Source: a virus. From it: a stretch of 24,451 nucleotides of DNA. Positions within the stretch are counted from its first letter, which is position 1. The number at the start of each line of letters is the position of its first letter. The position numbers and the translations under genes are program-made. The DNA lies in the IMG/VR virus record IMGVR_UViG_3300020457_000093, positions 1 through 24,451 of that record; one strand, written 5' to 3'. The notes beneath the pieces are model-generated. The model made no database searches and was not told where the DNA came from. It was given only the letters and a program-made list of their open reading frames with translations. This document shows positions 1 to 11,138 of this stretch, piece by piece.

Positions 1-3000
1 CCCTATTAACACGACGCATTCCTCGACCACCCCATACCCAAGCATTAGGTGAACGACCTACGTCTTCTCTTAACCAATGATTATTTCTAACAGTTCTACT
101 TGATATTGTACGAGTAGCAGTCCATTGATCTCTCCATGCACCCCACTGAACAGGAGCAAAACCATTTTGGTCAACTCTCAATTCAGAAGAAACTGCTCTG
201 AAATCACCTTCAATTTGAGTAACTTGTACTGGAAGTCTTCTTGTATCTAACCAGTCATCAGATGCTGGAGTTAAATCAATACGTCCAATGTAAGTAAATA
301 CGTTGAATGGGTTGATATTTTCAACTCTTGAAGCATATGGTTGGTCAATAATCTTCTTCTCTGTATAAGGAAGAGTTAATGCAGGACCAGTTTGTGTATA
401 ATTGGTAGATAATGATGCATTAATTTCAACACCTATGTTAGTAGTGTAGTGAGATGCACGGCAATAACCTTCTGTAAAGTCTAATGCAGCAGCAAAGTCC
501 TCATTAGAAACATCAGATTTACCATGATCTGAGAAATCATCAACGATAAATCCATTTTTCAAACGATCTTTACCATCAGCATCTATAATTTTAGTATTAT
601 AGGTATCTGTTTCAAGTAAATTTAATGAAGTATAGTACTCAACCTGATCTAATCTACGTTCTAAACCACCGATATCACGCATAGTAAAGCGTTTGTTATC
701 AGATCTTACAATAGCAACGTCATCTTCAGGGTTGAAACCATATGGTTTATGGTTAATGGTTGCTAAAAGCATACCATCTTTAAGATCATCAGGTTCTTGT
801 GGTGCCTCAGCAGATTTTCCTTTAATAATTTGGAACTCACCGTCAGGTGTAATAAATGCTTTGTCAGTTCTAGGTAAATACCAATCAAAATCACAACGGA
901 AATCGGTATTTAACTTAGGAATATCGAATAAAGTAGCATTAGGTGATCCAGATACATTGAATACTCTTGAATTAAAGTCAAAAGTAGACGCATTTACATA
1001 TGCTGGAGATGCTACAGTACCTGTTCCACTGTATAGATTCTTAACTCCTGGTCTGAAGTCTAAGAAATCTGCTAGGAATAGGTAAGTATAGAATGGAATA
1101 TCTGAGTAACTAGTATTCAGATAAGATTGACCACCGAAATAATCACCAGTTGCAGAGTGTGTATAGTAATCAACAACTATTTTTAATTTTCTAATTGGTG
1201 TTGCAACACCTTTCTTACGAACAATCTTAGAAATATCATATAAGAATCCAGTTTGATTGACTTCTAGGTAATAGTTGTCAGTAATAACTTTAGATCCTAC
1301 TACAACAGATCCTGAACTATCATTAATAATTGCAGAAATTGCAGTATTATTACTATCAAAACCATCAATCGTTTCACCAGCAACGAATGTTCCGTCTAAG
1401 TAAACGAGTGTTAGTTTTAAATTACCAGAGGCAAAGTCAACAACCTTTGCTCTTGCTTTAGATGTCTTACCAGTTACAATACTTCCTGTTGCAAAGAACA
1501 CTGGTTCTACAAGTGTTACTGAAGGTAGAATTGGATCATTATCATCTAATGATTCATAGACTGCATGTAATCTATAGCAGTCAGCAAGTCCTAGAGAAAC
1601 ATCTCTATCTTCAATTCTATTACCGTAAAGATTAGAGTAAACTAAATTATAATTTTGCTTATCAAGATCTTGAATAGTCTTATCTACTTTAAGAACAAAC
1701 ATCTGGTTTCCAGACTTAGTTTTTCTAGTAGTAACGTTCTTAGAGATAGTACCAGTTACCTTAACGGATGTAATATCTGTTAGATTATCAACCTGTAAAG
1801 TAGTTCTATCACTAGATGTGAATGTTGTATAACTAAGAGCACCAGAGTTAGTAGTATTCAAAGGTAATTCAGAACCTACTGCTGGAGGTGAACCACTACC
1901 ACTAACTGCCATTACAGTCATAGTGTAGTTCTCATTTGTAATTGCTTGGAACTGTTCGTTCTCTGGGAGAGTAATTGATATAGAACTAGAAGCAACAGTC
2001 TGAGAATCAAATGTTCTCCTTACAACCATTGACTCATCAGAAATACTCTTAACATACTTCTTAGGCATTGGGCTGAATAGATCAGCATTCTGTGCATCAT
2101 TTAATCTTGCACGATACCTTAATAAACTTGTGTAAGTACCTGCAGAAGGTGCTGCACCGCCACCTGGAGGAGTAACTTTAACTGTCTGTCCTGTTGAAGC
2201 AGTATAATCAAAAATGGATCCAATACCTGTAGTAGGTAGAGAATTAGGGTTTACATAATCAACATCAACATATTGAGTATTGTTAAAGTAAATTCTATCA
2301 CCTGGTCTTAAATCTAATGCAAAGTTTGATTGTAAACCAGTAATTTTCTCTGCACTACCTGTAGCATCATATGTAAATGTACTACCTTGTACTCCTAAAG
2401 CATCTTCTAATATAATGTCAGCAGTAAATTCTGTTGCATTAGTTGACTCATCCTTAGAAACAAGTTGACGTGTATCGGAGAATGAATATGTGTGTATAGT
2501 AGTTACAGTATCTTTATCTAATCCATCAACAGTAATCATTTCACCTGCAACAAAATTACCCTCAACTTGGTAAAGATCAATATGATCTGCAGCTGAGAAT
2601 GCCTCTGTTACATAACCTCTTGCACCTGAAGTCTTACCAACTACTAATGAACCTGCAGCGATTGTCTGAGCAGTATTCATATCCAAGATGGTGAACATCT
2701 GAACATCAAATAATACTGTCTTATAGACATCATCTGCATCACCAAACGTAGAGTTAGGATCATTAGCATGTTCACAAGTAAGTATCCTAGCAAGTCCGAT
2801 AATATTACCAGCACCTGATCCAGGAGAACTACTAAATGCGTCTCTTAATTCTGTCTTTTGATATGCATTACTAAGTGTAGATCCAGTAGCATTAGGAAAA
2901 CCGTAGATATTTTCGATATTTACTGAGTTTCCAACCTCAAATGGAATGATAGTATTCTGTAATGAATTGGTATCACGTGGTTTATCAAGATCAACATATG

Positions 3001-4111
3001 TTGGAGATAAAGTTTTAGTTCTATAACCTCTTACATAAGCAGTACCAGGACCAAACTCAACTGCATACATGCTCTCTGCAGTAGTATTACCATCAGCAGT
3101 AGTAGCACCAGCACCATATACACCATTATTGAACCCATCATCTAGGTTCTCTCTTAAGTTAATATCAAAATCTCTTACAACATAATCACCTGACTCTTCA
3201 TATGTTCTAGTAGCAAGTGATCTTTCTAATTCATTAAATGCACTACGATCAACTAACTGTTCTACTTTAGATTCATTGATACGTAATAGTTCGATGAAAT
3301 CTTTATCAGCATCATCTGTTAAAAGTTTCTTGACCAGCTTTGTGGTGATTCTAAATCTATGAGCACCAGGAGCAGCATAGTTAGATGTTCCAGCAGCATT
3401 ATCGTTGAGTGTGAGGTCATCTTCAGGAGTGATGATGGATTCCTGTATGTCGAGACCAATACGATATGATGGGTTGCTTCCATATTGATCGAGTAAGATA
3501 TATTGATATGCTACATCAACAAAGAATCCTCTAATGAAGTAGACACCTTCTTGCACATAAGCAACAGATCCAATCTGTAATGCACCTGTTGGTAGTAACT
3601 GAGCAAATGGTGAACCAATTTCAATCAGAGTAGTTCCAAATGTTATTTCTGTATCAGTAATTAACTGTTCGTTATTAGAGAAAGTGGATTGTGTATTTCC
3701 TGTACCACCAGACTCAATATACTTAACATATAATGTGATATAACCTTTATCTGATTCAGTATCAGATATACTATAAAGTACTTTTGCTTTAACTCCTGAA
3801 GTCAAACCTGTAATAATTTTACCTGTTAGCTGACTACGATATAATTCAACGTCAGCACCCAAGAAAGACTCCTGAAGCATAATTGCTTGAACTTCCAAGT
3901 CATAACCAACTTGACCTGGTATAACCATTGCACCATCTTTAAATAGGTGCGAACCGACATTCTCTACCTGATTCTGCAGAACACTCTGCATAGTAGTAAG
4001 TTCCCTTGCCTGAATTGGAAAGCCAGGACGGAACAGCACTCGATAAAAGTTTTTCGTTTTATCAAAGTCGTCGTAATACGGTGTTACGTTTAAATTAGTA
4101 TTTTGTGCCAT
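1..4111 (-). CDS. DUF4815-type virion structural protein, 3' end beyond the window (at least 1370 aa)
   Basis: I read this frame from the ATG at 4111 down to base 2 without meeting a stop, so the gene leaves the window on the left. The N-terminus (residues about 8-50) carries the PYYDDFD, NFYRVLFRPGFPIQARELT and 'LQNQVENVGSHLFKDG' pattern of DUF4815 structural proteins in marine T4-like phages. Around residues 175-235 are the equally typical 'GVYFIRGFFV', 'PSYRIGL' and 'SNYAAPGAHRF' blocks. Near the left edge come 'LPRTDKAF', 'FTMRDIGGLERRL', 'NPFNVFTYIGRIDLTP' and a Trp-rich QWGAWRDQW motif, seen in many phage tail structural proteins. Two 'FVAGExI' modules occur in the middle. The start lies 4 bp after the gp8 stop and has no clear Shine-Dalgarno, so translation may be coupled to gp8. 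The exact place in the particle is not known; a baseplate or tail-periphery role is inferred from context. Confidence 0.85.
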   Translation of the reverse strand, partial: MAQNTNLNVTPYYDDFDKTKNFYRVLFRPGFPIQARELTTMQSVLQNQVENVGSHLFKDGAMVIPGQVGYDLEVQAIMLQESFLGADVELYRSQLTGKIITGLTSGVKAKVLYSISDTESDKGYITLYVKYIESGGTGNTQSTFSNNEQLITDTEITFGTTLIEIGSPFAQLLPTGALQIGSVAYVQEGVYFIRGFFVDVAYQYILLDQYGSNPSYRIGLDIQESIITPEDDLTLNDNAAGTSNYAAPGAHRFRITTKLVKKLLTDDADKDFIELLRINESKVEQLVDRSAFNELERSLATRTYEESGDYVVRDFDINLRENLDDGFNNGVYGAGATTADGNTTAESMYAVEFGPGTAYVRGYRTKTLSPTYVDLDKPRDTNSLQNTIIPFEVGNSVNIENIYGFPNATGSTLSNAYQKTELRDAFSSSPGSGAGNIIGLARILTCEHANDPNSTFGDADDVYKTVLFDVQMFTILDMNTAQTIAAGSLVVGKTSGARGYVTEAFSAADHIDLYQVEGNFVAGEMITVDGLDKDTVTTIHTYSFSDTRQLVSKDESTNATEFTADIILEDALGVQGSTFTYDATGSAEKITGLQSNFALDLRPGDRIYFNNTQYVDVDYVNPNSLPTTGIGSIFDYTASTGQTVKVTPPGGGAAPSAGTYTSLLRYRARLNDAQNADLFSPMPKKYVKSISDESMVVRRTFDSQTVASSSISITLPENEQFQAITNENYTMTVMAVSGSGSPPAVGSELPLNTTNSGALSYTTFTSSDRTTLQVDNLTDITSVKVTGTISKNVTTRKTKSGNQMFVLKVDKTIQDLDKQNYNLVYSNLYGNRIEDRDVSLGLADCYRLHAVYESLDDNDPILPSVTLVEPVFFATGSIVTGKTSKARAKVVDFASGNLKLTLVYLDGTFVAGETIDGFDSNNTAISAIINDSSGSVVVGSKVITDNYYLEVNQTGFLYDISKIVRKKGVATPIRKLKIVVDYYTHSATGDYFGGQSYLNTSYSDIPFYTYLFLADFLDFRPGVKNLYSGTGTVASPAYVNASTFDFNSRVFNVSGSPNATLFDIPKLNTDFRCDFDWYLPRTDKAFITPDGEFQIIKGKSAEAPQEPDDLKDGMLLATINHKPYGFNPEDDVAIVRSDNKRFTMRDIGGLERRLDQVEYYTSLNLLETDTYNTKIIDADGKDRLKNGFIVDDFSDHGKSDVSNEDFAAALDFTEGYCRASHYTTNIGVEINASLSTNYTQTGPALTLPYTEKKIIDQPYASRVENINPFNVFTYIGRIDLTPASDDWLDTRRLPVQVTQIEGDFRAVSSELRVDQNGFAPVQWGAWRDQWTATRTISSRTVRNNHWLREDVGRSPNAWVWGGRGMRRVNR

Positions 4112-4115
4112 TCGA

Positions 4116-5648
4116 TTAGAACTCGATTACGATTTTAATATCTTCTACCTGGTCGTTTGCACGACTAATGGATCTCCTATTATCTATGTAAACAACGTCA
4201 CCGCTATTTGATTCGATCTCAGGTTTCGCATAACCATTATTAAATTTCATACCTAAGTCATACTCAGTGTTGTTAATTGTCCTTGCAGATGAGTTAGGAA
4301 CTGCGGGGAAGTTAACATCAGGTGCACCAGCAGCACCAGAGGTTGCACCACTAACAACGTTAGATCCGTCAAACTCATTTTGTGTACCAGTAACTTCTGG
4401 GAAGATACCGTCAACTGCGTTCTGATAATATTTCAGAACTTTAGTTGTTGCATTCCAAGAAATAACCCTACCACGAGCAGTAACGTTAGTACCACCTACA
4501 ACTCTTGTTTGAGTAATAATTTCATCAGGAACATAATTACCTTGGAAAGTTGGTGAGAATATCACCGCCTTTGTTGCTGAAACTGTCAAATCAGATATCA
4601 GTTCAGCAGTACCAAACTTAAGTGGGTTTGTAATCAAACCAATACGACGATAGTCGTTATCAACTGGGAAATCTCCCGCACCTTCATCATATGATAACTT
4701 AGCGTTGATCATGGTTCTAAAAGCACCAAGTTCAACTACCGAGTCCTTCCCATGACCACCTGGAGGAGGAATGATAACATCCACCTGACCAGAAGTACCA
4801 GTACCAATACCTGTAATATTATCCACAGAAATCTTACCGAAAGTATACCCAGTACCACCAGAAGTAACAGTAGCAGAGATAATTTTACCTCCATCAACCA
4901 CAATACTGACACGACCACCAGTGCCGTCACCGTTAATAGCAACATTATCATAAGTTCCGTTATTATATCCTGAACCTGCAGCGTTAATAACTACAGTATC
5001 AACCTCACCAGCAACTGCGTTCGTTTGAACTGCTGCGTTGGTAAACACAGGCATATAGTCGTTAGAGAAGAATTTAAGAACAGAAGCAACAGGAATAGTG
5101 TACATATACTTCCATCTATAACCATCACCAGTAGTAATGATTGAAGTTGAAGTACCTGTAGGTTCAACGGTAGAAGGTTTACCGTTAGGATCACTAGGTG
5201 ATGTACCGTTATAGATGCACTTATAAACTTGATACTGAGAGTTTACAACGTAAAAATCAGAATCATATAGTTTAGTTGCACCAGAAGCAGCAGTCTTACT
5301 TGGAGAATAATCATGACGATACATGTCATAAGTAAATCCTAAACCACCAGTAGTTTGTTCTGGGGATACCCAGTCAATCCTACGTACAACCTGTACGGTG
5401 TCAGAAGCGAGTACACGCTTCAAAGATACCATGTCATCATAAGACCCTGAAAATTCAGAGAATGAATCTACCGCTTGAGGCGGTGCGTTTTCATTATCCC
5501 AACTTTGCGGTCTTCCAATGAATAGATATAGACGATCTCTTGTTGCACCAGCAGCTGTATCGCTTTGGGTTGCATCTGGACCTTCTAAAGCTTTAATGAA
5601 TTTCTTCGCAGAAAAAATTCTAAATTGATCAGTTAATAGAGCTGCCAT
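4116..5648 (-). CDS. 8: gp8-like baseplate wedge protein
   Basis: Likely homologue of T4 gp8, a dimeric baseplate wedge subunit assembling with gp6, gp7, gp10, gp11 and gp53. The N-terminus has 'RDRLYLFIGRPQSW' (compare FITFGRSEPW in T4), then 'VVRRIDW' (T4 VIPRRDW), 'VYKCIYN' (T4 VYRCLD) and 'TTGDGYRWKYMYTIP' (T4 GDGYVWEYLFEIP). The C-terminus has 'RRIGLITNPLK' (T4 RQISIITNPLE) and ends 'GDVVYIDNRRSISRANDQ...EF', matching the T4 ending GEMIYMENRPPIIMAMDQ. At 510 aa it is much longer than T4 gp8 (334 aa). The excess is mainly two inserts, residues about 212-296 (two GxGY beta repeats) and about 345-470. A TAG stop two codons upstream of the ATG makes this the only ATG start near the conserved N-terminus. 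The gene begins 34 bp after the 1407-aa gene, behind a late-promoter-like octamer. Confidence 0.9.
   Translation of the reverse strand: MAALLTDQFRIFSAKKFIKALEGPDATQSDTAAGATRDRLYLFIGRPQSWDNENAPPQAVDSFSEFSGSYDDMVSLKRVLASDTVQVVRRIDWVSPEQTTGGLGFTYDMYRHDYSPSKTAASGATKLYDSDFYVVNSQYQVYKCIYNGTSPSDPNGKPSTVEPTGTSTSIITTGDGYRWKYMYTIPVASVLKFFSNDYMPVFTNAAVQTNAVAGEVDTVVINAAGSGYNNGTYDNVAINGDGTGGRVSIVVDGGKIISATVTSGGTGYTFGKISVDNITGIGTGTSGQVDVIIPPPGGHGKDSVVELGAFRTMINAKLSYDEGAGDFPVDNDYRRIGLITNPLKFGTAELISDLTVSATKAVIFSPTFQGNYVPDEIITQTRVVGGTNVTARGRVISWNATTKVLKYYQNAVDGIFPEVTGTQNEFDGSNVVSGATSGAAGAPDVNFPAVPNSSARTINNTEYDLGMKFNNGYAKPEIESNSGDVVYIDNRRSISRANDQVEDIKIVIEF
4761..5015 (-). repeat. GxGY beta-repeat insert in gp8
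   Basis: Residues about 212-296 of the gp8-like protein hold two copies of a 'V..V.V...GxGY....' unit (AAGSGYNNG and SGGTGYTFG), separated by Gly/Val-rich strands. T4 gp8 has nothing comparable here. The same unit recurs in the 1407-aa protein and at the C-terminus of the giant ORF. Confidence 0.65.
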
Positions 5649-5682: not shown

Positions 5683-8600
5683 CTATTTCGAGCGAACAGT
5701 TGCTGAGTAATCAATTCTCTTGATTCTATAAGACGCACCACCGTTCCCATTAATCTTTTCTCCACCTAAAACTGCCTGTGCAGCAGCATTAGCACCAGTT
5801 GTATCACCAGAAGCATTTGTGAAGGTTACTGTTGGATGAATCGCATAAGTTCCATCTACAGTTTGTGGAATACCATATCCACCATTAGTTACAGTTAATG
5901 ATGCAACTTGGTCTCCTGCAGCAGTTAGTACCGCAGTTGCAGTTGCTTGTATATCACCTGTGTTTTCAATAGCAACAACAGGTGGTAGTGAATAGTTAGT
6001 ACCTGGATTTTGAATAACAAAATCTACAATACTATTCTTCTCTGAGAATTCATAAAGATATCCAGCAATACCAACGTTTATATTATTAGTATTGTAAGGA
6101 ATAATATCCTTAACTATTAACAATCCATCTGAAGGTGCCCATGAAACAACAGTTCCTTGTACACCAGAGATTGCACCTGTTACAACTTCATTAACAGAGA
6201 AGTTTGCACCATTATTATCTTTTACTAAATCAACATATATGTTAATTAGTGCTGTATGTTCTACACCCTCTGAGAGTCCACCTGCAGCACTTATAGTTGC
6301 ATACTTGAATGGAATACTACCATCTTTGATATTATCTCCAACTTGGAATAGAGTTGTATTAGTACCACCCTGAGTTTCCTCAATACCATAAAGAGAACTG
6401 AAAATACCACCATCAAGTGATATTTGATTCAAGAACGTAGTATTAGTATTTACCAAATCAGGAATACCATCACCTGCAGCAGTTGGTAAAATATCTTCAA
6501 ATTTCTTATCTTGTAAAGTTCCTATAGGAACTGTCAATGTAGCAATACTATCACCAGTAGAATCAAGAACTGTATGTGGTAATACACCAGCAGCAGAAGC
6601 ATCTGCAACACCAGCATCAAACTGAACAATCGCATCTTCAGTAGATGGAATACCACCATCAATAAATGCTAATTCATCAACTTCAAATGTAACTAGAAGT
6701 TCTCTAGTTGTAGGATCCCAGTCATATACTTTAGCAACCTTGTTATTAGCATTTTCAACTTTTCTAATAACTCTATCACCAACATCAAACTGATAAGTTG
6801 AATTTCCATTACTGTCATTCTGACCAGCATCAAGAATAACCCTTTGGTCATAATTGAAGTTAACACCTCTAGTTAAACCAGTAAACTTACCTGCAGTCTT
6901 AGAAGTATATGTAATAGTCTCTTTATTCAGAATAAGAGTACCAGATCCTGGATAAGCATCTGTAGAGTTTACAAATATATTACTATCATTTGCAGTAACG
7001 TTCTTAACTAAACCTGTTAAGAATATAGCAGTAGAATTATATGCCTGTCTTGCTCTAGTCTTACGTTTTAATTGAACTAACTTCGTAAAGATAATATTTG
7101 GTGCAGAAGTATATCCAGTACCAGGTTCAGTAATATTAATACCAGTAACAGCACCTTGACTAATAGTTGCTTCTGCTCTAGCACCAATACCACCGCCACC
7201 AGTGATTAAAACATATGGTGCTTCTTGATAGAACTCACCTTGATCTACAACATTAATACTTGTAACTTTACCTAGTTTATCAATTTGAGCAGCACCCTCA
7301 GCACCTTGTCCACCACCACCTTCAAAGATAAGTGTTGGAGGACTAGCATATTCTCTACCAGCATTTAATAGTGATAAACCAGTAACAGTTTGTACAACAG
7401 GACTACCAGTCGCACCTGTACCTTGACCACCTAATATTCTTGCAGCAGCAGGTCCGAAATAATTATCACCCTTTTGGGTCATCTTAATATAAGATATTTG
7501 ACCAGGATTATCAGTACTTAATACAATATTTCCTTCAGCACCTTCAGGGAAATTAGTTGATAATGCTGGAAGTGTATCACCTTCAAAATAAGGAACTCCA
7601 TAATATTTTGGTCCAATAGCATAAGGATATGTAGGATCACCTGAACCATCCTCAGTCATATAATAACAGTAAGTTCCATTTGGATATTCAGGAGTTACTG
7701 CAAATCTACCATTATAAGCATCAAGAGTACCAGTAGAAGTATCCCAAATATAATCTTGTGTTAAATCTCCGAGGATATAACCTTCCTGAACTGTTCTTAC
7801 ACCAGCACTAGCAGTATTATAAGCAAAGACATAAAGTAAACTAGGAGCATCTACAGGAACTGCAAATGTAATAGATCTTGCAGTAGCAGCATTAAATCCA
7901 GCAATATATGCTGCATAGGTTACATTTGCACCATCTAATTGGTAAGTAGTACCACTGTTTCCACCTGCTGCACCAGCCCAAACAAAGTCAGTATTACCAA
8001 CTAATGCTGCGTGCCATCCATCCTCAGTTGATGATATTAATAATTGATTATTAACATTAGTTGCATCATTCTGATTAAAGACATACGTCTTACCTCTCTT
8101 AAGATTTAAGAATGCAGGAGAACCACCATCAAAAGTAAACTTGTTATTCGCTATAGCAACTGTATAAGTTACTGTACTTGCAGTAACAACTTCAGGTCTA
8201 GTACCTGGAAGTTCAGCAGTAGTTCTTAATCTAAATCCAGAGGTCTCTCTTGCTACAGTACCACTAGCATTATATCCCCAAGGACCGTAAATTGGATATC
8301 CATCATAGGACATACCCAATATCTTAGAGTGTCCATCTACATGTCTTGAAAGATCAATCGTATTTGGATCATTTGAATCTGATTGATAATATCCAGTATG
8401 ATAATAATTATTAGGACGTGCAGAAGTATCTGGAGTGGTATTCAGTATCATATAACCTTCATCACCTGTATATCCAGACATATAACGATGATGTGCACAA
8501 TGATAATAAATCTTGTTTGTTTCATCTCCATTCATTATGAATAGAGGTTGGAAATTATTCTCGTAATCTGCTGATGGTGCTTGAGTTACACCTGTACTAT

Positions 8601-9906
8601 TATAGTATAAAGTACCTGCTGGACTTGCAGTCGTATTTAAAGGACCATCTGGAGTCGTACTAAAGTGCATTGGATGCCCTTGAGCATGAGTACCAGTAAT
8701 ACCATTACTTGCATCAGATTGATCCCAGATAATTAAATAATTTGCTTGTACCTGAATATTCTCAGGAGACATATAATAGGTTCCTGGAACAAATGGTCCA
8801 AATTCATCTGCTTCATCTCCAAAATCAATATAGAAAATACCATTAGGGAATGTAATTGGTGCACCGTTAACTCTAAATTGGAATCCGTTAGATCCTAAAC
8901 ATAGATCAGTATCAGTAAAGGCATCTCCAGATACATTACGAAGATATATTCTACTTACAGCATTTTGATTATCTCTAACAATCTTAGCAATTTCACCTCT
9001 AGCAGTACCACCTACCTCATCAACATATCTACCAACTTCAAATTGTCCTATAGATTCATCTGGAAGAGTAACGTTAAGTAATACATTATCAAATTCTGAT
9101 TTAATCTTCCAAGTAAAAGGTCTTAATTTACCCCACTCAAATACACCATTAACATTATCAAACTCTTTAATAACATTACTGTTTTGATAATACCATTGAT
9201 TACCTTCGAGAATAGCATTATAAGTTAATGACCCTGCGGTCATAACATTGTGATGTTTTACCGTATCAATAGAAAAGTTTGTTGGTGCACCACCTACAGT
9301 TCCCCATTCAGGAGTATGAAGCAGACCACCGTTTGCTAATATACCTAATACTTTATTATTTTGTTCTTCTCTAGTGCCTGGGTTAGGTACATCCTTACCA
9401 CCCCTATAAATGAATTCCTGATTGAAATTTCTGTCTACAATATCACCTGAACCTCCAGGTTGCCTTTCAGTCAACATGATCTGAGATGGCTTAGGAGAGT
9501 TATCAGATACTATGGTTAACCTATCTGTAGATTTAGGAGGAGTACCTGTTGTACCGAATGTTGCAGTTGTAGGACTGTTAGGATGATTTTGAAATATCCT
9601 TCTAATATCAAATGAATTTACGACATTAGGAGTTTCTTGTTCTGGTACAATTTGTAATCTTAGAGGATCATATCCTTTTCCTCTATTAAGAACACGAACG
9701 TGTATAATTCTACCAGAATCATCATCAATAATAGCTGCAAGAAGTGCTTCCTCATCTGGTGTACCACAACCAGTAACAGTCAAACGTGGGGGATCGGATG
9801 ATGTATATCCAGATCCTCCACTTATAACTCTGACTGCACGAACACCGAAAAATTCATCAAAAATCGGTTCAATGTCGGCACCAGTACCAGGGACAACTCT
9901 TGTCAT
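5683..9906 (-). CDS. 1407-aa virion structural protein with cupredoxin-like and YHYH domains
   Basis: Large beta-rich protein in a late structural operon. Order of modules: GxGY beta repeats at residues about 22-46 and 67-86; a cupredoxin-like domain about 375-495 with possible copper ligands H411, C470, H473 and M476; a YHYH domain about 500-772, recognised by '[20 protein letters not shown]' and by '[15 protein letters not shown]' with [10 protein letters not shown]; a second, ligand-less cupredoxin-like domain (about 577-710) inside it; three further GxGY-type repeats about 838-940; more beta modules, including '[13 protein letters not shown]' near 1236; and two more repeats about 1293-1366. 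There is no signal peptide or membrane segment, as expected for a virion part. The ATG lies 5 bp after the stop of the 408-aa gene without a good Shine-Dalgarno, so coupling is likely. Domain calls are by eye. A copper-binding or enzymatic role is inference; the domains may be purely structural or host-binding. Confidence 0.8.
5809..6030 (-). repeat. C-terminal GxGY-type beta repeats of the 1407-aa protein
   Basis: Residues about 1293-1366 contain '[20 protein letters not shown]' and, after a short Ala-rich link, '[15 protein letters not shown]' followed by HPTVTFTN. This is the same strand-turn unit as at the protein's N-terminus and centre. Confidence 0.6.
7087..7395 (-). repeat. central GxGY-type beta-repeat triplet of the 1407-aa protein
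   Basis: Residues about 838-940 hold three consecutive units: '[20 protein letters not shown]', '[20 protein letters not shown]' and '[17 protein letters not shown]'. They are about 37 residues apart and are linked by Gly-rich 'GGGGxGAxAxA' stretches. Such units are common in marine phage structural proteins and probably stack as beta ribbons. Confidence 0.7.
7591..8409 (-). other. YHYH domain, split by an inserted domain
   Basis: The N-terminal part (residues about 500-572) has '[20 protein letters not shown]' followed by '[12 protein letters not shown]'. The C-terminal part (about 711-772) has '[20 protein letters not shown]' and [10 protein letters not shown]. In ordinary YHYH proteins these blocks are close together; here about 135 residues lie between them. 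The function of YHYH domains is not settled. Confidence 0.75.
7777..8178 (-). other. degenerate cupredoxin-like domain inserted in the YHYH domain
   Basis: Residues about 577-710. '[15 protein letters not shown]' resembles the first strands of phage cupredoxin-like domains, and '[20 protein letters not shown]' aligns by eye with 'IPMDAPTTLYYQCTLHAAMQ' of the 408-aa protein. The copper ligands are replaced: His to N620, Cys to A695, His to T698, Met to A701. The fold is probably kept without metal. Confidence 0.6.
8422..8784 (-). other. cupredoxin-like domain with intact type-1 copper motif (1407-aa protein)
   Basis: Residues about 375-495. '[12 protein letters not shown]' supplies a first His (H411), and '[15 protein letters not shown]' supplies C470-x2-H473-x2-M476, the ligand order and loop spacing of amicyanin. 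The H411 to C470 gap of 59 residues is longer than in amicyanin and is filled by a Ser/Thr/Asn-rich loop. H472 and H414 are further possible ligands. Copper binding is inferred from the motif only. Confidence 0.6.
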
Positions 9907-9911
9907 TTATA

Positions 9912-11138
9912 TTAACTTACAACGTTTATTGTTCCTTGCATTGCTGCATGGAGAGTACACTGATAATACAGTGTTGTTGGAGCATCCATAGGGATAGTCC
10001 AGTATAATACAGTAGTTCCACTACCACTTTGACCAGTAGTATATGGTGTGCCAGATAATCCTTGAGTAGACTGAATCCTGAAAGGATGTCCACTACCCTG
10101 AACTGAATTATCAAAAGCGTAAGTGAACCCTCTATAAACATAGAATGTAGGATCATTTACTGTGCCACTAAACCCAGGACCAGTTACAGTGTAATCTGCC
10201 TGACCGTTAGCATTTATTTCCCACCAAGTAATTGGACTGCGTACAGGAACCCAGTTAGTTCCATTAAAGAATAATGAATCACCTTGAGTGATACCAGATG
10301 TATCTGTATCAGTTAAGGCAGCAAATGTTGTAGTTAGAGTTCCATCAAAGTTAATTGTTAGAACATCACCAACAACAGCAGTAGCAATATTAGTTCCACC
10401 TGTAACAGTTAATGTGTCTGTAGCAGAATCAGCAGTTGTATTACCAGTATCACCAGCAATCGTGGCAAATAAGTTTACAGAACTTACACCTGCATTGTCA
10501 TCTCCTGGAACCCACTTACTTGTACCAGTATTCCATTTTAGAACTTGGTTTGCTGTAGGTGCAGTAGTTGTAGTATCAACGTCTGCTAAAAGATCAATAC
10601 TAGAATATTGTGTTGCTAGTTTTGCTCTCACATCACCAGCACCACCTGCTGTAATATTAATGTTTACGTATGGATTATCGTCACCATCAACAGTATAGAA
10701 ATAACCAGTATAAGTTGCTGCTGCAGGAGCAGAACCAATATTGGCAAATTCGTTCTTATATTTTACCTTAGTCGGTAAATCGATCTCACCAGTGGCACCA
10801 TCAAAAGTAGAAGTGATGCTTCCAACACCAAGAGTAATATCACCTGTTCCGTTTGGAGCGATATTAATGTTTCCATTAGACGTGGATATGATAGAATTTC
10901 CATTTACATCTAATGCTGCAGTTAAGTTTGTATAATCTGAAGGGAGGAATGTGGAACCGTTGTAGCGTAATACTTGTCCTACAGCAGGGTTTGTAACACT
11001 AACTGTTAAGTTAGTGCCATTCCCTAATGCAGTATACAGTTCATCAAAATTATCATTAATCTTGTCACCACCAACACGGAGTGTATCACCTGTATTATCA
11101 TTAGCTGCGGTTCCAAGACCTAGTGATTGTTTAGCCAT
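9912..11138 (-). CDS. 408-aa fibre-like structural protein with C-terminal cupredoxin-like domain
   Basis: The N-terminus 'LGLGTAANDNTGDTLRVGGD' followed by KINDNFDELY is typical of marine phage fibre and neck-type structural proteins, probably an assembly or attachment segment. The middle is low-complexity Thr/Asn/Asp-rich and carries three related '(V/S)Lx(Y/W/F)N...xxP' units: QVLRYNGSTFLPSD near residue 55, QVLKWNTGTSKWVPGD near 198 and SLFFNGTNWVPV near 288. Residues about 314-408 form a cupredoxin-like domain with H351, C394, H397 and M400 in type-1 copper order, ending two strands later at the stop. The gene starts 16 bp after the giant ORF and ends 5 bp before the 1407-aa gene. GCGAG just upstream of the ATG is a weak ribosome site. 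The location in the virion is unknown; head fibre, collar and tail fibre are all possible. Confidence 0.75.
   Translation of the reverse strand: MAKQSLGLGTAANDNTGDTLRVGGDKINDNFDELYTALGNGTNLTVSVTNPAVGQVLRYNGSTFLPSDYTNLTAALDVNGNSIISTSNGNINIAPNGTGDITLGVGSITSTFDGATGEIDLPTKVKYKNEFANIGSAPAAATYTGYFYTVDGDDNPYVNINITAGGAGDVRAKLATQYSSIDLLADVDTTTTAPTANQVLKWNTGTSKWVPGDDNAGVSSVNLFATIAGDTGNTTADSATDTLTVTGGTNIATAVVGDVLTINFDGTLTTTFAALTDTDTSGITQGDSLFFNGTNWVPVRSPITWWEINANGQADYTVTGPGFSGTVNDPTFYVYRGFTYAFDNSVQGSGHPFRIQSTQGLSGTPYTTGQSGSGTTVLYWTIPMDAPTTLYYQCTLHAAMQGTINVVS
9915..10199 (-). other. cupredoxin-like domain with amicyanin-type ligand loop (408-aa protein)
   Basis: Residues about 314-408. 'GSGHPFRIQST' gives H351, and LYYQCTLHAAMQGTINVV gives C394-x2-H397-x2-M400. 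Amicyanin has the same C-x2-H-x2-M loop, followed likewise by Gly and a final beta strand. The H-to-C distance is 43 residues here and 39 in amicyanin. The metal is inferred, not shown. Confidence 0.7.

Follow-up and report, generated by a model that had tools for sequence, protein, structure and literature searches.

A predicted cupredoxin-like domain with a full His/Cys/His/Met ligand set at the C terminus of gp9 in a Kyanoviridae phage

Our analysis supports the prediction, from sequence comparison and structure models, that the baseplate protein gp9 of a Kyanoviridae phage ends in a cupredoxin-like domain with a full His/Cys/His/Met ligand set. The window analyzed here is a whole virus record of 24,451 bases, with every large gene encoded on the minus strand. 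The domain, its fold class, its ligand set, the strong conservation and coupled loss of that set, and its position in gp9 are supported by computation. It is very likely that gp9 binds copper at a type-1-like site. The best overall explanation, which we regard as likely, is that the cupredoxin end of gp9 would bind one copper and serve as a metal-stabilized docking module; set against the other roles weighed below, structural docking at the fiber socket is favored tentatively, by analogy with T4.

The gp9 homolog and its C-terminal domain

Homology and gene order identify the gene set at 2-24451 as the baseplate wedge cluster of a phage in the Kyanoviridae, with the 408-aa protein as gp9 (Table 1). 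This protein matches phrog_677 (E 3.5e-199), passes the cut-off for PF07880 (T4_gp9_10_N; E 1.8e-10, 41.6 bits against 25), and is 79.5% identical to S-SSM5 gp9 over its full length. Two cultured cyanophages have a matching gene order, namely S-SSM5 (T4-GC969 giant, gp9, T4-GC399 protein, gp8, VrlC-like protein) and P-SSM4 (gp7, gp9, T4-GC399, gp8, VrlC). According to an extract of PMC3037559, virion proteomics of S-SM1 detected 41 proteins, and T4-GC969 was detected in S-SM1 virions. The giant protein of the window contains many repeats resembling F-x-C-x2-D ... H-x-YPR-x2-DP, in which Cys and His recur at regular intervals.

Table 1. Features of the baseplate wedge cluster in the window, with predicted ligand residues
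Feature	Position	Strand	Evidence or remark
Giant protein, >4,400 aa	11155 to window end (24451)	-	
gp9 homolog, baseplate wedge-tail fiber connector, 408 aa	9912..11138	-	phrog_677, PF07880, S-SSM5 gp9 identity
T4_gp9_10_N domain, aa 3-91, expected wedge anchor	10866..11132	-	PF07880 match 3-91
Cupredoxin-like domain, aa 305-408 (last 104 residues)	9915..10226	-	AF2, Foldseek, profile match to amicyanin
H351, predicted first His ligand, GHPF motif	10086..10088	-	53/53 conserved; invariant in alignment A2
C394, predicted Cys ligand	9957..9959	-	sole Cys of gp9; conservation
H397, predicted second His ligand	9948..9950	-	conservation
M400, predicted axial Met ligand	9939..9941	-	conservation
Adjacent baseplate wedge protein, 1407 aa	5683..9906	-	phrog_708; T4-GC 399 family; two further domain copies
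Second domain, aa 370-480, complete set	8467..8799	-	HMM E 1.3e-22
H411, second-domain ligand	8674-8676	-	
C470, second-domain ligand	8497-8499	-	
H473, second-domain ligand	8488-8490	-	
M476, second-domain ligand	8479-8481	-	
Third, ligandless copy, aa 573-704, within YHYH domain	7795..8190	-	HMM E 5.7e-27
gp8	4116-5648	-	
phrog_358 protein	2-4111	-	

An earlier note on this DNA had placed the domain at 9915-10199 (aa 314-408). Its end was right, and the conserved domain begins about nine residues earlier, at aa 305. The same note's placement of H351, C394, H397, and M400 is correct in the 408-aa translation; its counts of 43 residues between H351 and C394 and of 39 between the corresponding amicyanin residues are each one too many, the distances being 42 and 38. 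The latter count runs from H53 to C92, which we take to be the amicyanin ligand numbering; amicyanin mutant names among the fold matches agree with it. The window gp9 has a single Cys, C394, and just two His residues, H351 and H397, and 60 distinct full-length gp9 relatives (24,501 aa) have 60 of their 63 Cys and 120 of their 150 His at the ligand positions. Because the sole Cys is the predicted ligand, a role of C394 in an internal disulfide is ruled out.

An AlphaFold2 model of the domain computed with 53 homologs has a mean pLDDT of 97 and a pTM of 0.88. In domain numbering, H47 precedes the strand 49-52, C90 closes the strand 85-90, and H93 and M96 come before the strand 97-103. This is the cupredoxin layout: a strand follows H351, the last strand but one finishes at C394, and the loop leading into the final strand contains H397 and M400. 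In a Foldseek search of the PDB, the best 17 matches were all rusticyanin or amicyanin, led by rusticyanin (E 2.3e-4, TM 0.57), and lower-ranked matches were cupredoxins mixed with immunoglobulin-like domains. The TM scores of 0.46-0.59, at rmsd values above 5 A, show the modeled domain to be a divergent cupredoxin, far from a near-identical copy of these proteins. In a library of viral structures (BFVD), the best fold matches were gp9, long tail fiber, and spike proteins of other cyanophages, and the domain is indeed present in fiber and spike proteins of such phages. Two copies, each with complete ligands, occur within one structural protein in P-SSM2, in a marine Salacisavirus, and in P-HM2. 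Pithovirus and Marseillevirus genomes contribute further BFVD matches (A0A481Z6J5, A0A481YWX9, and others), short "beta-sandwich proteins" that raise the possibility of similar domains in giant viruses.

Kinship with copper proteins is also seen in sequence. When a profile of 21 sequences (A1) was searched against 177,635 PDB sequences, amicyanin came first (E 1.1e-5), followed by plastocyanin (2.6e-5); nitrite reductase and rusticyanin were also found, and the top 39 matches were all copper proteins. With the four ligand columns hidden (17 of the 21 A1 sequences), all 18 PDB matches were still copper proteins, albeit weak ones (best E 0.03), which indicates a kinship signal beyond the ligand motif. 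The narrower profile A2 gave only weak PDB matches, the best of them below significance (E 0.097). A single sequence used as query returned one chance-level PDB match (nitrite reductase, E 1), and a family profile was therefore needed. PF00127 (Copper-bind) weakly matches 10 of 53 relatives (best E 8.6e-4) and does not match the window domain, while NCBIfam has no match for either the 408-aa or the 1407-aa protein. HMMER aligns Pro352 with the Pro preceding amicyanin His53, thereby offsetting the first His by two residues; we take this tentatively to be a Pro-Pro register effect. Together, the fold search, the family profile, the ligand-masked control, and the conservation of the ligands support the cupredoxin-like assignment made in the earlier note.

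The strong plastocyanin match raises the question of a captured petE fragment, in other words a photosynthesis gene transferred into a structural one. According to an extract of PMC3037559, petE is present as a separate gene in cyanophages, S-SSM5 among them. However, the profile also finds amicyanin, and phage structural proteins contain a diverse family of such domains. Both the loop (CxxHxxM instead of CxxHxxxxM) and the pair at the first ligand (His-Pro instead of His-Asn) differ; capture of petE is rejected on these grounds, and we consider it highly improbable. No cellular origin of the domain was found beyond one fragment in a Bacteroidetes single-cell assembly, which is possibly phage DNA; at 3860-4072 of the retrieved locus, this contig encodes a piece of the domain with Cys-x2-His-x2-Met.

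Conservation and loss of the ligand set

The four ligands are invariant in 53/53 distinct close IMG/VR relatives and, likewise, across 53 diverse homologs down to 29% identity (alignment A2, rebuilt from retrieved loci), where some structural positions (G, Y, F, P, and L) are invariant too. Both synonymous codons are in use at the His and Cys positions (CAT/CAC 36:21 at H351 and 43:14 at H397; TGT/TGC 40:17 at C394). After clustering at 60% identity, the most conserved columns are the four ligands and Y392. This conservation rules out a chance motif, and at the level of sequence the ligand pattern of gp9 is more than chance.

Among 381 distinct homologous domains, 319 have the set HCHM and one has HCHL, Leu being an established alternative as axial ligand in some laccases. 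Of the remainder, 60 have no Cys and one is truncated. In a tree built with the ligand columns masked, two losses suffice to account for the site-lacking domains, and these losses take Cys and both His together: (i) a clade formed by the third domain of the 1407-aa neighbor family and (ii) Synechococcus phage RN05-S, whose tail fiber repeat protein (1940-4285 of the retrieved locus) has His, Cys, and His replaced and Met kept. The RN05-S sequence reads as an independent loss of the site. The all-or-none pattern thus represents two events, not sixty, and, as the search seeds were site bearing, site-bearing domains are favored among those found. Domains of the ligandless clade still have the fold positions G320, G337, F342, and Y391 fixed, so the ligands are unnecessary for folding; their retention in gp9 therefore points to metal binding.

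The ligandless copies bring up another reading, in which the domain would be a generic beta-sandwich adhesion module and its ligands either a relic or a site that, in the virion, binds zinc, some different metal, or no metal at all. Such copies exist and are stably kept, immunoglobulin-like domains occur among the lower fold matches, and the cytosol is poor in free copper, so that a site on a phage assembled there could be empty or hold some other metal. On the other hand, residues left as a relic would have varied along with a fold that diverges to 29% identity, and this reading does not agree with the joint loss of Cys and both His. A calcium site is ruled out, since Cys/His2/Met are the wrong ligands for it, and the set is uncommon for zinc. 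We therefore regard the adhesion module as unlikely and keep to a copper site.

The earlier note had called the copper loop amicyanin-type. This holds for its length but not for its second sphere. In plastocyanin and amicyanin, Asn follows the first His and a Pro stands two positions beyond the Cys, whereas the window domain has H-P at the first ligand and C-T-L-H at the loop. In 304 of 320 site-bearing domains, the residue following the first His is Pro, and Pro is absent from the ten commonest residues at the position two after Cys (312/320 site-bearing domains). The length of the CxxHxxM loop is constant in 318 of the 320, while the spacing from His to Cys ranges from 40 to 75. As Pro has no backbone hydrogen bond to donate, a single NH-to-sulfur bond, coming from the other side, would be left at the phage site. 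The His-Pro second sphere would bear on color and potential, not on copper binding itself.

Two further copies of the domain lie in the adjacent 1407-aa wedge protein, the first with a complete site and the other ligandless; neither copy was mentioned in the earlier note. CxxHxxM is retained in 79/79 relatives of the former (the second domain in Table 1) and in 0/75 relatives of the latter (the third). Profile positions 77-138 of PF14240 match before the third copy and positions 141-183 after it, indicating that the YHYH domain is split by an insertion. In this YHYH domain (7540-8499, minus strand; aa 470-790), one segment, inspected by eye, suggests that the His residues belonging to the motif are replaced. 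A model of two domains of the wedge protein has low to medium confidence (pLDDT 69.5), and the first of them shows a gp9-like layout of strands and ligands. Most fold matches of this model, whose TM is low, are to laccases, nitrite reductase, or AcoP, a cupredoxin; given this pLDDT, the laccase matches count only as agreeing with tandem cupredoxin-like domains.

Proposed role of the domain

T4 gp9 is trimeric, with 18 copies in all. It binds gp7 through its N-terminal domain and receives the long tail fibers coaxially at its C-terminal domain; upon triggering, it swivels along with the fibers and contacts gp10 (PMC3004832). Given this arrangement in T4, and since cyanophage gp9 keeps the N-terminal family, the predicted copper domain is most likely located at the fiber socket or close to it.

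We infer copper occupancy, stoichiometry, orientation, and a docking role along the following lines. One copper ion per domain would be held by His351, Cys394, His397, and Met400, a type-1 set with a loop of amicyanin length. By the T4 analogy, six gp9 trimers would stand at the baseplate rim, with the N-terminal domain anchored and the C-terminal end at the socket of the long tail fiber, giving up to 18 sites per virion. Because free copper in the cytosol is very low, the metal would probably be acquired after assembly or on release. It would then act as a structural pin: copper would tie the CxxHxxM loop to the neighboring strands, and the loop and the edge around His397 would be held as a rigid docking surface for the fiber or for another component of the baseplate or host surface. 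Virions would thus probably carry copper near the fiber joint.

Two other roles for a copper-loaded domain deserve consideration. The first is attachment to, or mimicry at, a copper-handling component of the outer membrane, akin to the Trojan or Ferrojan horse proposed for iron. The location of the domain at the expected fiber end of gp9 and its presence in fiber and spike proteins elsewhere are compatible with this role, and HxH iron-binding motifs in tail fibers of T4, cyanophages, and alterophages offer a precedent (PMC11705849). Nevertheless, gp9 and the wedge protein are baseplate parts and not fiber tips, we identified no copper receptor, and some members of the family belong to proteins of uncertain location, which makes a host-surface role unlikely. 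The second is redox activity, whereby Cu(II)/Cu(I) switching or electron transfer would alter the fiber joint and license baseplate triggering only near a living host. Type-1 ligand sets normally serve electron transfer. The engagement of gp10 by a swiveling gp9 in T4 would fit such a switch (PMC3004832), but gp9 has neither a redox partner nor a second redox centre, its sole Cys being a ligand, and no result places the site of the neighboring wedge protein close to that of gp9. A redox role appears less probable still than a host-surface one, and structural docking remains our tentative choice.

A broader proposal, possible although we doubt it, is that the virions of marine T4-like cyanophages are copper metalloproteins, with tens of type-1-like sites (in gp9 and the wedge protein) of unusual second sphere (His-Pro with a loop of amicyanin length) and with metal controlling fiber docking or triggering at the host surface. 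If this were true, the copper status of the host and of seawater would affect infection. If copper is present, a widespread group of ocean phages has a copper protein among its core structural components; the idea of iron in tails would then extend to copper, a link of infection to copper in seawater or the host would be suggested, and there would be an explanation for a domain that recurs in fibers and baseplates of marine phages and has no Pfam or NCBIfam model.

Comparison with known systems

Our findings combine a known fold and a known type of site with a location that, to our knowledge, is undescribed, in genes that are already public for many cultured phages. In the open-access literature searched, we found no paper joining a cupredoxin with a phage baseplate (the absence of one being weak evidence) and no report of copper in phage particles; the sole paper there on cupredoxins and cyanophages concerns Borgs, not phages.

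With amicyanin, which is the top PDB match to the family profile and the second kind of fold match behind rusticyanin, the phage domain shares a Cys-x2-His-x2-Met loop of the same length. However, it is fused to a baseplate protein instead of being a free secreted electron carrier, it has Pro after the first His, and, in the case of the window domain, PF00127 does not match. The gp9 domain is therefore not an amicyanin. The Pro after the first His likewise sets the phage domains apart from azurin. Rusticyanin, the best fold match, has a similar Gly-His-x-Phe around its first ligand, but it is longer both in the loop and in the protein as a whole and is a periplasmic electron carrier of an acidophile. 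In multicopper oxidases, the type-1 His precedes Pro (HPxH motif), which the His-Pro pairing of the phage domain recalls, and laccases are the top fold matches of the two-domain part of the neighboring protein, at low TM. Nonetheless, the phage loop, CxxHxxM, is shorter than that of the oxidases, and the HxH and HCH motifs of a trinuclear site are absent from gp9, which has only two His. The plastocyanin of cyanophages (petE) is a copper protein of the same kind of phage, but it is encoded by a separate, soluble auxiliary gene and is no part of the virion (PMC3037559).

Compared with T4 gp9, the window gp9 shares the N-terminal family PF07880, and cultured relatives have an annotated gp9 near the gp8 region. 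Enterobacterial T4-like phages, however, align with the window gp9 over approximately its first 43 residues only; in this sequence-level comparison, no C-terminal homology to T4 gp9 was found. We know of no metal binding by T4 gp9.

The nearest published idea is that of iron in tail fibers (PMC11705849). The HxH motifs of T4 gp37 and alterophage R22Y likewise put a metal on a tail appendage protein, marine phages included, but there iron occupies an octahedral His site formed by a trimer, whereas the site predicted here would be a cupredoxin site of Cys, two His, and Met in each subunit.
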